Assembly (NCBI GenBank): GCA_003513015.1
Contig: DOTA01000069.1
Coordinates: 1-18,942 of the forward strand
Reading direction: 5' to 3'
Length of the DNA stretch: 18,942 bases
Source: Chloroflexota bacterium
GTDB taxonomy: Bacteria; Chloroflexota; Anaerolineae; Anaerolineales; UBA11858
Shown: positions 4,915 to 9,033 of the stretch, piece after piece
Numbering within the stretch: the first letter of the stretch is position 1
How the letters are laid out: each line of letters opens with the position of its first letter
Made by a program: the position numbers and the translations under genes
The notes under the pieces: generated by a model
The model's input: the letters and a program-made list of their open reading frames with translations, nothing else
What the model was told of the DNA's origin: nothing
The model's database searches: none

Positions 4915-6252
4915 TCAGGCGATTTCGAGATAACGTTCGATTTCCCAATCGGTGACTCGTGTGCGATACTCTTCGATTTCAGCCCATTTGGCTCTTTCAA
5001 AGGCCTCGTAAATTTCGGGGCCGAGCGCATCTTTGATAACGGAATCCTTTTCGAGTTCCCGCATGGCTTCAGAGAGCGAACCGGGCAGCGAGGCAATGTT
5101 ACGTTCGGCGCGTTCCTCAAGGGTCAGGTGATAAACGTTGACGTTGTTGAGTGGTGTGGGGCAATTAATTTGACTATCAATACCATCCAGGCCAGCGGCT
5201 AGCATGGCGGTGATCGCCAGGTAAGGATTAGCAGACGGATCGGGGCAGCGCAACTCGGCGCGCACGGCTTTGTCGCGGCCGGGCATATAGCGCGGGATGC
5301 GAATCAACGCGGAGCGGTTGGTTTGCGCCCAGCCCACGTAGACGGGGGCTTCATAACCGGGTACCAGACGTTTGTAAGAGTTGACCGAGGGGGCTACCAC
5401 GGCAGCCATGGAACGGGCGTGATGCAATTGCCCGGCAATGTAGCCAAAGGCGATTTGGGAGAGATGGAATTCATCTTGGGCATCGTAGAACAGGTTATTG
5501 CCCTCCTGATCGAAGAGGGATTGGTGGCAGTGCATACCAGAGCCATTGATCCCGAAAATTGGTTTTGGCATAAATGAAGCTATCAACCCATGTTTGGCGG
5601 CGATGGCTTTCACGGTATATTTCAGGGTCAGGATGTTGTCAGCGGCTTCGAGGGCATCGGTGTAGCGAAAGTCGATTTCGTGCTGACCGAGGGCCACTTC
5701 GTGGTGTCCCATCTCGATTTGCAGGCCCATGGTGGAGAGGGCATCCATCAGTTCAGCGCGTACCCGCAGGGCCTCGTCAGATGCGGAAAAATCGAAATAG
5801 CCGCCCACATCATGGGGTACGGGGTGAATATTATCGGTTTCACTGCGTTTGAAGAGGAAAAATTCGGGTTCGGGACCAATGTTGAGGGTCCAGCCGCGTT
5901 CCTCGATTTTGGAAAGCAGACGTTTCAAGGTGCCGCGCGGATCTCCGGGGAAGGGATTCCCGTCGGGCTGGTAGATATCACAGAAAACCCGGCCGCGGCG
6001 GCGTTCTTCCGCACTCCAGGGCAAAACAGAATAGGTGTTTTTGTCGATTACCAGGCGCATATCGCTTTCCTGGATGCGGGCAAAACCTTCAACTGAGGAG
6101 CCGTCGAACCAAATGCCTTCATCCAGTGCCAATTCCAGGCGACTGGTGGGAATATCCACACTTTTTACTGCGCCGGTTACATCGGTGAATTGCAGAGACA
6201 CAAATGTGACGCCATCTGCTTTGACTTGAGCCATCAATGTTTTTGAATCCAT
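4915..6252 (-). CDS. glnA: Glutamine synthetase, GSI-alpha type
   Basis: This 445-residue cytoplasmic enzyme joins ammonia to glutamate using ATP and forms a dodecamer. Landmarks in order are WFDGSSVEGFARIQESDM (48-65), the GPEPEFFLF glutamate motif, GSGMHCHQSL, the ATP and glutamate segment VPGYEAPVYVGWAQTNRS, and RCPDPSANPYLAITAM. Length matches the Bacillus-type enzyme (444 residues). The adenylylation tyrosine loop of GSI-beta enzymes is absent. R59 lies where Bacillus Arg62 mediates feedback inhibition, so direct feedback control is likely. ATG 6252 is chosen because GGAGG lies five bases upstream; the in-frame TTG at 6264 overlaps that site. No glnR, glnB or amtB is adjacent. The leader carries a structured element and an intrinsic terminator, which suggests control by attenuation. 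The gene is monocistronic and ends in a bidirectional terminator. Confidence 0.96.
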   Translation of the reverse strand: MDSKTLMAQVKADGVTFVSLQFTDVTGAVKSVDIPTSRLELALDEGIWFDGSSVEGFARIQESDMRLVIDKNTYSVLPWSAEERRRGRVFCDIYQPDGNPFPGDPRGTLKRLLSKIEERGWTLNIGPEPEFFLFKRSETDNIHPVPHDVGGYFDFSASDEALRVRAELMDALSTMGLQIEMGHHEVALGQHEIDFRYTDALEAADNILTLKYTVKAIAAKHGLIASFMPKPIFGINGSGMHCHQSLFDQEGNNLFYDAQDEFHLSQIAFGYIAGQLHHARSMAAVVAPSVNSYKRLVPGYEAPVYVGWAQTNRSALIRIPRYMPGRDKAVRAELRCPDPSANPYLAITAMLAAGLDGIDSQINCPTPLNNVNVYHLTLEERAERNIASLPGSLSEAMRELEKDSVIKDALGPEIYEAFERAKWAEIEEYRTRVTDWEIERYLEIA

Positions 6253-6269
6253 CACAACCTCCAAAAGTT

Positions 6270-6295
6270 AAAAAATAAGCACGCCTCCGGCGTGC
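6270..6295 (-). terminator. Intrinsic terminator inside the glnA leader
   Basis: On the minus strand GCACGCC (6295-6289), loop GGA and GGCGTGC (6285-6279) are followed by TTATTTTTT ending at 6270. The U-run ends only seven bases before the GGAGG of glnA, so it would stop transcripts before the gene unless disrupted. Confidence 0.7.
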
Positions 6296-6305
6296 ATTGC
6301 ATGAT

Positions 6306-6388
6306 GGTTAGTTAGGAACCTTAACCTCACTGTCCTGGCTTGTCAGGATCCAATTGGTAATTTTTCGAACTCAAATTTCTAACTAACC
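6306..6388. repeat. Ten-bp inverted repeat closing the glnA leader domain
   Basis: GGTTAGTTAG (6306-6315) and CTAACTAACC (6379-6388) are exact reverse complements, 83 bases end to end. The internal hairpin TCCTG/CAGGA lies between them. Confidence 0.85.
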
Positions 6389-6395
6389 GGGCGTT

Positions 6396-6424
6396 ATGCT
6401 ATCAGATGCCTGTGTGGGTGTCAA
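6396..6424 (-). promoter_or_regulatory. Strong sigma-A-type promoter of glnA
   Basis: On the minus strand a perfect TTGACA (6424-6419) and TAGCAT (6401-6396) have the ideal 17-base spacer. The expected start at about 6389-6388 coincides with the first base of the leader's closing stem. Confidence 0.75.
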
Positions 6425-6503: not shown

Positions 6504-6534
6504 TTGTCTGAGATAAAGAATGGCGCGATATAAT
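6504..6534 (+). promoter_or_regulatory. Promoter predicting a leaderless transcript
   Basis: A perfect TATAAT lies at 6529-6534, with a weak TTGTCT at 6504-6509 (19-base spacer). Six bases separate the -10 box from ATG 6541, so transcription should begin at the A of that start codon. A perfect TTGACA at 6463-6468 has no good -10 partner. Confidence 0.5.
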
Positions 6535-6540
6535 TCTGTT

Positions 6541-9033
6541 ATGACCTCAGCAACGCAAATCGAGACCGGGAAACCAGCTATTCAAAACAACGGATCCCAG
6601 GAATCTGCCGAAGAGTTGAAGCGGATCTTGGATGCAGTTTCTTCGATCGAACAGATTGAGCTTTCTCAAGACGAAATCGATGGTATCGTAAAACAGCTAT
6701 CGCGGGTGATGCCGGCCGGCGATATCCCTGGAGTTATTGCCAGTGGTATGGCCCGTTTGCGTGAACGTCACATTTTGGGGGAATCTGTTGATAAGGATAT
6801 CAATTGGTTAGCAGGCAAGCTTAAACCGATCATTGATAAGGCAACATATTTGGGTGTCTTTGCAGGCCCGGCGTCAGCAATTTGGGTTTACCAAAATTTA
6901 TTGGAGTTGGCAGGCAAGAGCAGCGAAGATGCTTTCCCGGATGGTTTGTGGCAGTTCTATTGCGAATACGCTTTGCGCGAAGATACTGCCCGCCATTCCA
7001 ATGAAAGTTGTGGTTTCGACACCATCCTGAATGCCCACGATATTTATCTCGACCAAGTTGATCGCGTGTCGGCCTGGATTATGGCTGCGGTTCACAACCT
7101 GCACCAATATGATGATTTGTTGGAAAATGAGTGGCGCGAACGCATTTACACACATTTGATGAGCGAAGTAACTGCCGATTTGCCCGACGCCGCGCGGTAT
7201 GCACGCATTTACCGGGCCTGGCGCAGCCATTTGCCTTATCATCGTGATCTGGATGCCGGATTTGATGAGACCTATCCCGAATATCGCCGAAGAAAGTTTG
7301 ACAACTTTTTTAATGATGCCACTAAAAAAGTTCCTGCAAAATATCGGGCGGTTTGGAGGGAGCGAGTACGCGAACTCGAGGAAAGCGATTTACCCCGTTA
7401 TCAACGCCAGATGACCATCTTGGCGCAGCTCATCCCTGGCCCTTATCGCGAAGAACGCCGATTAATCGAGCTTAAAAAGGCCCAAATTGCGGTGATTTAT
7501 CAGGGAGTGTATTATCTGCTCCCGGTTTGTCAGGCTGATGGCAGCCCCATTGATGTTGATACCGTGCGTGGTATGGTTGCCGCAATCTTTGCGACACCCG
7601 TGAAAGGCAACCCCTTCCAGCTAACTTATTTCCCCGGAATGCAGCGCTCCTCTCTGGCTGAATTTTTGAAGAAAACTAAAAATCCGGATATACGGAAGTT
7701 GAGCATTCTCGAATCCGTGCCGATCATGATTAACTTTGACTCGCGCGATCCCAATGTGGGGTTATCCGGGTTGCGCCGGGCCGAACGCGGCATCGGTTCG
7801 CACCCGCTCACTCTGATTGACACCGGAAAAACGATGGTTTTTGATCAATCCCATATTTTCTTTGATGGGGCCTGGGGTGCGGCCTTTGCGGAGATCGTAA
7901 CCAACGAAGCCACATCTTGGGGTGTTTACCTTTACACGCTACCAACCGCAGAACCCGCCAGCACTTTGCCTTACACCCTGGATATTTCGTTAACGGATGA
8001 TGATCTGAAATTGATTCAAAAGTTGCCGCGTGTCGAACACGAAGCCTGGGCCGAAAGCTCAGCGATCAAAATTAAGGCCATTCTGGCTTTGCGAAAAATG
8101 TTCAAGCGCCGCAGCGATTTAATTCAGTTAACCGTCAATGATCTACTGGTGTTATACCGCGGTATTCACACCGCTTTGTACCAACCCTCGAATGAATTAT
8201 TGGATGAATTGAGTGGCTATATTCTAAAATTGGCGGGAGAAAAAACGGCTTTAGATGCTATGCAAGCCCTCAAACAAAGCTGGGAAACCCAGCGGATCAA
8301 CCCTTCAATCTTAATTCCGGTCGATGCGAGTGAGCAATCACCCCGGGAGCGAGTCCATCCCCTGGGATTCGAAGTACCCCTCTCGGATTTGAATTTGTTG
8401 GATCTCCACCGAAAGGTTGTCTCCGCCTTGAACGAATACTGGAATTGTACCGGCGATCGGCATGAAGCCTATCAGGAGTTCGACCATCTTCAGCGTGAAT
8501 ATCTGACGACTATCGCGGCTTTTGGTGGTGTTTTCAATAAGGCCAAAGCAATCGCCGCCAATGGTGAAAGCGCCAGCCTGGGCACCCTCCGGCTGTTGGC
8601 ACACCTGCCGACACCGGTACAGTATTGGCTGGATAATATCTCCACCCAAATCAATGTTCTAAACGATTTAATTAAAGGCAACGAGGTTTTCTCAAATGTT
8701 GGCGCGGTGGTTCCCACCAGTACCTTGACCCGTTTTTTAAGCGCCAAGGATGATAACGAGAAAAAAAATTTGGTTTGGGGCGTGTTAACCGATGCCGAGG
8801 GCGGCATGAAAGTAACTTTGCGTGATTTTCGCCCTCATGTGCACTTGTTTATTGAGACTGGCTTTCAAGATGTAGCCAACATGATTACCCAAGATTACTT
8901 GAACAGTTTTGCCGAGGGGTTGAACCAATTTGTCACGGATTTGCGCCGCATCACCGTAGCGAGTCGTGAAACTCGCTTGGCATTTATTCGAGATATTCGC
9001 GAATTGAACCAGGCCGGGAAATCAGATGACTGA
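6541..9033 (+). CDS. Large cytosolic protein with carnitine/choline acyltransferase-like centre, leaderless start
   Basis: This 830-residue protein has no signal peptide or membrane helix, and I do not recognise its full-length family. The segment from about 314 to 460 follows the order of carnitine/choline acyltransferases. It has a short strand pair (IAVIYQGVYYLLPV), an SSLAEFLKKTKNP helix, ILESVPIMINFDSRD, and then H438-IFF-D442-G443. That is the HxxxDG catalytic motif shared with CoA-dependent acyltransferases. The later carnitine-binding motifs of that family are not apparent. The N-terminal part (30-290) is helical with a conserved-looking REDTARHSNESCGFD stretch. The C-terminal half is mostly helical. 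ATG 6541 is chosen because a TATAAT box ends six bases before it and no ribosome binding site precedes either it or the ATG at 6520. The kinase gene overlaps its end by eight bases, implying joint function. Acyl transfer is inference only. Confidence 0.8.
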   Translation: MTSATQIETGKPAIQNNGSQESAEELKRILDAVSSIEQIELSQDEIDGIVKQLSRVMPAGDIPGVIASGMARLRERHILGESVDKDINWLAGKLKPIIDKATYLGVFAGPASAIWVYQNLLELAGKSSEDAFPDGLWQFYCEYALREDTARHSNESCGFDTILNAHDIYLDQVDRVSAWIMAAVHNLHQYDDLLENEWRERIYTHLMSEVTADLPDAARYARIYRAWRSHLPYHRDLDAGFDETYPEYRRRKFDNFFNDATKKVPAKYRAVWRERVRELEESDLPRYQRQMTILAQLIPGPYREERRLIELKKAQIAVIYQGVYYLLPVCQADGSPIDVDTVRGMVAAIFATPVKGNPFQLTYFPGMQRSSLAEFLKKTKNPDIRKLSILESVPIMINFDSRDPNVGLSGLRRAERGIGSHPLTLIDTGKTMVFDQSHIFFDGAWGAAFAEIVTNEATSWGVYLYTLPTAEPASTLPYTLDISLTDDDLKLIQKLPRVEHEAWAESSAIKIKAILALRKMFKRRSDLIQLTVNDLLVLYRGIHTALYQPSNELLDELSGYILKLAGEKTALDAMQALKQSWETQRINPSILIPVDASEQSPRERVHPLGFEVPLSDLNLLDLHRKVVSALNEYWNCTGDRHEAYQEFDHLQREYLTTIAAFGGVFNKAKAIAANGESASLGTLRLLAHLPTPVQYWLDNISTQINVLNDLIKGNEVFSNVGAVVPTSTLTRFLSAKDDNEKKNLVWGVLTDAEGGMKVTLRDFRPHVHLFIETGFQDVANMITQDYLNSFAEGLNQFVTDLRRITVASRETRLAFIRDIRELNQAGKSDD

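Follow-up and report, generated by a model that had tools for sequence, protein, structure and literature searches.

The window, i.e. the whole stretch of 18,942 nucleotides from a contig of a Chloroflexota bacterium (Anaerolineales) that was analysed here, contains no letter N. On its minus strand it encodes a glutamine synthetase, GlnA, which reached 535 bits against TIGR00653 (cut-off 429) and also matched PF00120 and PF03951. The leader of this gene holds a promoter-like site, a perfect stem that encloses a domain of 83 nt, a terminator-like hairpin with a T-run and a ribosome-binding site (Table 1), all of them at the places where an earlier sequence-only reading had put them. The hairpin consists of 7 bp with a GGA loop and precedes the start codon of glnA by 43 nt; the position of the transcription start is one that we infer. 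Divergently from glnA, a frame of 837 aa is located on the plus strand (6520-9033), followed by a serine/threonine kinase. A Pfam search with this frame gave no match.

Table 1. Features of the glnA leader and gene in the window.
Feature	Position	Strand	Basis
Promoter-like site TTGACA / 17-base spacer / TAGCAT, extended TG -10	6424-6419 and 6401-6396 (span 6396..6424)	minus	pattern
Perfect 10-bp stem GGTTAGTTAG / CTAACTAACC	6388-6379 / 6315-6306	minus	sequence
83-nt domain closed by the 10-bp stem	6306..6388	minus	sequence, folding vs shuffles
GAGGTTAAGGTTCCT, possible relic, 13/15 identical to the ribozyme core strand GAGGTGGAGGTTCCT	6314..6328	minus	alignment vs shuffles
Terminator-like hairpin GCACGCC-GGA-GGCGTGC, then T-run TTATTTTTT	6295-6279, 6278-6270	minus	sequence, folding
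Ribosome-binding site GGAGG, seven bases past the T-run	6258..6262	minus	sequence
glnA, type I glutamine synthetase, 445 aa, ATG at 6252-6250	4915..6252	minus	TIGR00653, PF00120, PF03951

The structure of the leader was compared with chance. Of 500 dinucleotide shuffles of the 172-nt leader, 3 contained a perfect 10-bp stem. The 83-nt domain folded with a z-score of -2.75 (5 of 500 shuffles as good) and a leader stretch of 132 nt with -3.02 (1 of 200). The region inside the stem folded at chance level (z -0.49, 152 of 500 shuffles as good). Of the multi-hairpin domain that had been proposed, the closing stem is thus beyond chance, but its interior is not. The layout had also been called textbook attenuation. 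The terminator-like hairpin with its T-run agrees with this, but a competing antiterminator is absent, as the best upstream duplex with the 5' arm of the hairpin reached -5.1 kcal/mol. No competing pairing was predicted for the terminator, and forbidding the hairpin costs exactly its own 12.6 kcal/mol. Shuffles of the region yielded on average 0.8 promoter-like and 0.3 terminator-like sites, so that neither is rare by pattern alone and the weight of both comes from relatives.

The sequence-only reading had proposed an Rfam scan and a collection of related glnA leaders. No Rfam family matched in the window at gathering level and none in a leader stretch of 341 nt at E values up to 5. This includes the glmS ribozyme (RF00234) in the leader as well as the glutamine riboswitch and the T-box, whose absence had been stated before. 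When the leader (251 bases) was used as DNA query against its own genome and 60 related genomes, it matched itself only. A candidate second copy of the hairpin motif in the own genome (contig C261) was rejected as it sits within a long reading frame. Many of the collected leaders did contain RNA structure in the same slot, namely a ribozyme of the glmS type, whose core is missing from the leader in the window. Since the leader has no DNA relative in the 60 genomes, the idea of an undescribed nitrogen-responsive RNA is not supported for the window. What the relatives carry is a known RNA class at an unexpected site.

From the named genomes and further relatives, 155 unique glnA leaders were gathered. 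Twelve archaeal ones (<54% identity) were removed, which left 143 for the counts, a few of them with a short upstream part. A core of the glmS type was found in 70 of these 143. It was recognised by pattern in 67, at most 520 bases upstream of glnA; L217 and L218 were added by sequence and Rfam, L218 being one bit below the cut-off, and L230, which is broken by Ns, was added by model search. Among 40 scanned loci, the gathering score of RF00234 was passed at glnA in ten, while the core pattern was present in 32. In whole genomes, RF00234 was detected in 180 of 251 members of the order at E values up to 0.01 and in 85 above the cut-off. This search overlooks some glnA copies (e.g. in G004 and G005, where the only listed match is at glmS), and others score under the cut-off. 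Of 20 relatives in the family of the window, 16 yielded a glnA gene, and wherever 500 bases or more precede it, which holds for 15 of them, the core is present upstream. The sequence of the sixteenth (L016) begins 89 bases upstream of glnA and holds GGCGTGCC with a T-run; in the same genome, another contig ends soon after a ribozyme and a hairpin of the same type. The expectation that glnA leaders of this lineage often bear a structured regulatory RNA and a terminator-like hairpin was therefore confirmed in the relatives. According to their sequences, the order is ribozyme core with cleavage motif, P3 helix, mostly a hairpin with T-run, ribosome site and glnA. As a raw count that is not corrected for chance, 30 of 66 ribozyme leaders have a promoter of the same extended type 5' of the cleavage site.

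The helices of these leaders were named P1, P2, P2.2, P3, P4 and P4a, which we take to be those of the glmS ribozyme class. The cleavage motif AGCG was present in 67 of 71 ribozyme rows with a loose pattern, in whose listing three more rows were chance matches, and in 64 with a stricter one. Among 34 diverse copies, chosen for having the motif, AGCG, ACGAGG and AAAATCG were invariant and CAGCGGATGCC nearly so. In the catalytic half of the same copies (P1, P2, P2.2, an inserted hairpin and the distal P2 helix), 97.1% of the cells were paired compared to 41-50% with slid partners. The covariation score was 0.447 against 0.07-0.13 with slid partners, P2.2 itself being nearly constant. For P4/P4a, compensatory change was observed at 15 of 15 predicted pairs in 44 copies. 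Two models were used, R2 for the catalytic half and R1 for the P3-P4 half. R2 scored 94-131 bits on five complete copies outside its training set (L187, L225, L091, L229 and L222), some of which closely resemble training rows. The ribozymes of L187 and L091 sit 0.6 and 1.1 kb upstream of glnA. Lower scores were obtained for L037, which lies 2.1 kb upstream (47.8 bits), and for L230 with its Ns (29.5 bits). Of the 66 loci searched, the remaining 59 gave no match at E values up to 1. The glnA leaders of the relatives look like sound ribozymes of the glmS type, for which cleavage with glucosamine-6-phosphate (GlcN6P) is predicted.

A hairpin with a T-run at most 110 nt from the glnA start was found in 48 of the 70 ribozyme leaders compared to 12 of 72 others, the window being excluded. 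RYGCC occurs in the 5' half of the hairpin in 41 of the 70 and in 5 of the 72 (Fisher p 1.5e-11). By the criterion of T-run and 110 nt, 22 ribozyme leaders have no hairpin, and the T-runs 3' of the hairpins differ in length, some being short. The 5' arm of the hairpin (GGCA-Y-GCCC) has its complement in the P3 3' strand and the adjoining flank (GGAAGGGY-N-UGCC), and both vary jointly, e.g. UGCUG with CAGCA. In 53 of the 70 leaders, namely those where strand and hairpin were located by script (the strand wrongly in at least one case, L017), the duplexes had a mean of -13.9 kcal/mol with their own and -12.2 kcal/mol with swapped partners. The permutation test gave a z-score of -6.0 (0 of 5000), although permutation leaves part of the relatedness in. 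It gave -4.9 (0 of 5000) for 15 non-redundant leaders that are less than 70% alike. For the 53 leaders, mirror (z -0.06) and complement controls were near 0. The predicted antiterminator shares the GGG with P3, so that the two would exclude each other. Together with the terminator they are predicted to form an attenuator platform on a ribozyme in the relatives. About 10 bases before the cleavage site, these leaders also have a purine-rich strand (GGAGAGA) that is complementary to the pyrimidine strand UCUUUCUCC beside P3; this candidate helix had a z-score of -4.5, yet its mirror control reached -4.1.

Further elements were observed upstream of glnA in some relatives. In the last 260 bases before glnA, L182 and L191 retain the hairpin GGGCACGCCCCGGCGTGCC and a GGGGCGC strand, and a GC-rich domain closed by AGCGATG/CATCGCT occupies the place of the ribozyme. 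This domain gave no match with Rfam and R2 at E values up to 1; it is possibly a second sensor on the same platform. In L194, a 6S RNA (66.7 bits, 217-393 minus) lies directly upstream of glnA and is followed by a small hairpin. Of the 40 scanned loci, 12 (L003-L005, L010-L012, L015, L017, L019, L021, L023 and L025) have a selenocysteine tRNA no more than about 1.2 kb upstream of glnA.

The RF00234-type ribozymes were also traced to the genes behind them at 61 places, 60 of them off known glnA starts (among the matches listed) and one, L239, found through its hairpin. These genes were 53 times glmS, once a distant glnA (39% identity) and seven times another gene. Five of the seven, whose proteins had sufficient length for the search (L259, L261, L267, L286 and L298), matched a partial region of PF01645, the glutamate synthase conserved region, above the cut-off with 24.8-40.7 bits. 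L239 and L280, which are truncated pieces, had no Pfam match and are 64-74% identical to members. Since the nearest solved chains for these proteins are those of L-lactate oxidase with 27 bits, the genes are called glutamate-synthase-like only. The pattern GCRYGCC..GCRYGC occurred in none of the 53 glmS leaders (two matches fall inside the gene) and in six of the eight non-glmS leaders, while L259 and L290 show a variant hairpin by eye. The hairpin is thus not a general part of the ribozyme. The duplexes of P3 strand and hairpin arm in the eight had -11.6 to -19.4 kcal/mol in seven cases and -4.7 kcal/mol in one. Between P3 strand and glmS ribosome site, a weak difference was obtained (own 7.19, permuted 6.96). 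In the family of the window, a glutamate-synthase-like gene was present in 3 of 21 genomes (PF01645 with 22.0-27.0 bits; one is the L239 place again), each time with core and hairpin 0.5-1 kb upstream. Ribozyme and hairpin were observed before such genes at L239 (=L303), L259, L261, L267, L280, L286, L298, L301 and L302. In G015, two frames, one of them MOSC-like, lie between the ribozyme and the glutamate-synthase-like gene.

For the relatives, the following mechanism can be proposed. An unpaired P3 3' strand would bind the 5' arm of the hairpin and RNA polymerase would read through; with P3 closed, the terminator would form. GlcN6P and cleavage would tip this balance, so that less glutamine is synthesised when GlcN6P is plentiful. 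Cleavage might perhaps act by removing the strand that pairs beside P3. The synthesis of GlcN6P uses up glutamine. On a wider scale, a second lineage of glmS-type ribozymes may have been recruited in the Anaerolineales to glnA and glutamate-synthase-like genes with terminator and antiterminator, where self-cleavage with GlcN6P would stop GS-GOGAT transcription, and the window would have lost the sensor and kept promoter and terminator. We regard this recruitment as a tentative proposal with somewhat less than an even chance of being right; it is weakened by the fact that the glutamate synthase label stems from a partial Pfam match. It is also conceivable, but rather unlikely, that the ribozyme of the relatives works by cleavage and mRNA decay only, that the hairpin shields or stabilises the glnA mRNA and that the P3 pairing is incidental. 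Cleavage and decay are the mechanism described for the glmS class in passages of PMC6154101, and the variable, partly short T-runs and the 22 leaders lacking the hairpin would fit it. The covariation of P3 strand and hairpin arm, however, as well as the absence of the hairpin pattern from all glmS leaders speak for the attenuator platform.

For the window, the question is whether its leader descends from such a ribozyme. In its sequence, the cleavage motif A/GCG and the core strands ACGAGG, AAAAUCG and CAGCGG are missing. When R2 was run unfiltered on the entire 18.9-kb window, it nevertheless matched best in the glnA leader on the correct strand (6360-6279, 7.3 bits, E 0.43; rescaled, E is about 0.0015 for 136 nt on one strand), a modest signal beside the 94-131 bits of the five complete copies. 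Within this match falls the core block GAGGTTAAGGTTCCT with 18.25 bits. Under four gap settings, 1, 3, 7 and 9 of 300 shuffles reached this score. In a fifth setting, where gaps cost little, the leader gave a longer alignment against the catalytic half as a whole, but 41 of 300 shuffles reached its score and only the short block was therefore counted. A relic of the P3-P4 half was considered and rejected: R1 did not match the leader even with filters off at E values up to 10, the 14.9 bits of a P4 profile were equalled by 19 of 300 shuffles, and an nhmmer search with the P3-P4 domain found nothing for the leader. These hints favour the core-strand block over the P3-P4 half as candidate relic of a ribozyme. 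In the whole own genome, a place on contig C506 scored higher with R2 than the window (12.1 bits, E 3.87; G000:C506:1330-1474 minus, L304). The own genome does have a ribozyme at glmS (L235, about 1530-1800 minus, contig C350), with a partial RF00234 match of 24.9 bits and two Ns in the stretch. These Ns may explain why it is absent from the whole-genome RF00234 results.

The reading we prefer is that the leader in the window is an eroded remnant of the glmS-type ribozyme leader for which, in the relatives, a role in attenuating glnA transcription is predicted; we give it about an even chance. The hairpin would then not respond to a ligand and would either terminate transcription at a fixed, leaky level or stabilise the glnA mRNA at its 5' end. 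Next in likelihood comes an ordinary leader, in which glnA never had a ribozyme, stem and hairpin arose independently and the promoter alone sets expression. We consider this doubtful but worth serious attention. In a GlnA tree with 77 rows, the window lies outside the ribozyme clade of its family and without firm placement, next to both ribozyme-bearing and ribozyme-free lines, and the presence or absence of the ribozyme needs 8 changes on this tree. The closest GlnA proteins (77-78% identical) belong to leaders without ribozyme, so that the glnA of the window may never have had one, and some leaders of this kind bear a different hairpin, GACGCCTC...GAGGCGTC. The frequency of terminator-like sites in shuffles and the shuffles that reached the core-block and cheap-gap scores also suit an ordinary leader. 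The higher R2 score on contig C506 strengthens it and weakens erosion. On the other hand, all 15 testable leaders of the own family carry the ribozyme, the hairpin with GCACGCC at its distance from the start codon resembles that of many ribozyme leaders, and the glnA leader is the place in the window that R2 matched best.

A riboswitch or attenuator of an undescribed kind, with the 83-nt domain sensing the nitrogen status, ranks third and appears quite improbable. The 10-bp stem beyond chance, the hairpin with T-run, the glnA context and the lack of an Rfam match had made it attractive, but the inner domain folds at chance level, an antiterminator is absent and similar DNA was found neither in the 60 relatives nor elsewhere in the own genome. 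Erosion of a ribozyme leader thus remains the most likely explanation. A new riboswitch is improbable in the window, which probably leads instead to a variant of the glmS ribozyme on nitrogen genes that is apparently unreported. Among the matches listed in a literature search covering titles and the beginnings of abstracts (the McCown 2011 class survey lies outside this scope), no glmS ribozyme with glnA or glutamate synthase was found. If the proposal is true, GlcN6P would be a feedback signal on nitrogen assimilation, a self-cleaving ribozyme would be coupled to transcription termination and the window would represent a natural case of ribozyme loss. The system of the relatives is open to direct test in the cultured Levilinea saccharolytica (L030) and Thermanaerothrix daxensis (L026), whose glnA leaders both score under the Rfam cut-off.

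Compared with known systems, the window shares its glnA context with the glutamine riboswitch (glnA RNA, RF01739, so named in a passage of PMC3766115) and the T-box. It differs from both in giving no match, neither in the window at gathering level nor in the leader at E values up to 5. The relatives resemble riboswitch platforms of transcription attenuation in that P3, antiterminator and terminator share strands and are predicted to exclude each other. Unlike these, they attach the platform to a ribozyme class described, in the part of PMC6154101 cited above, as acting by cleavage and mRNA decay, and the window retains the terminator-like hairpin only. According to passages in PMC2258182 and PMC6154101, glmS ribozymes are located in front of glmS or of genes that serve GlcN6P production, and they act by cleavage and mRNA decay. 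The leaders of the relatives are like this class (RF00234) in the AGCG motif, P1, P2, P2.2, AAAAUCG and the CAGCGGAUGCC core as well as in P3/P4 with a mostly GNRA-like P4a loop, and some pass the gathering score. The window itself differs from the class by lacking cleavage motif and core. The copies of the relatives differ from it in another way: they precede glnA or glutamate-synthase-like genes rather than glmS, and behind most of them comes a terminator-like hairpin, with which a predicted antiterminator strand covaries.
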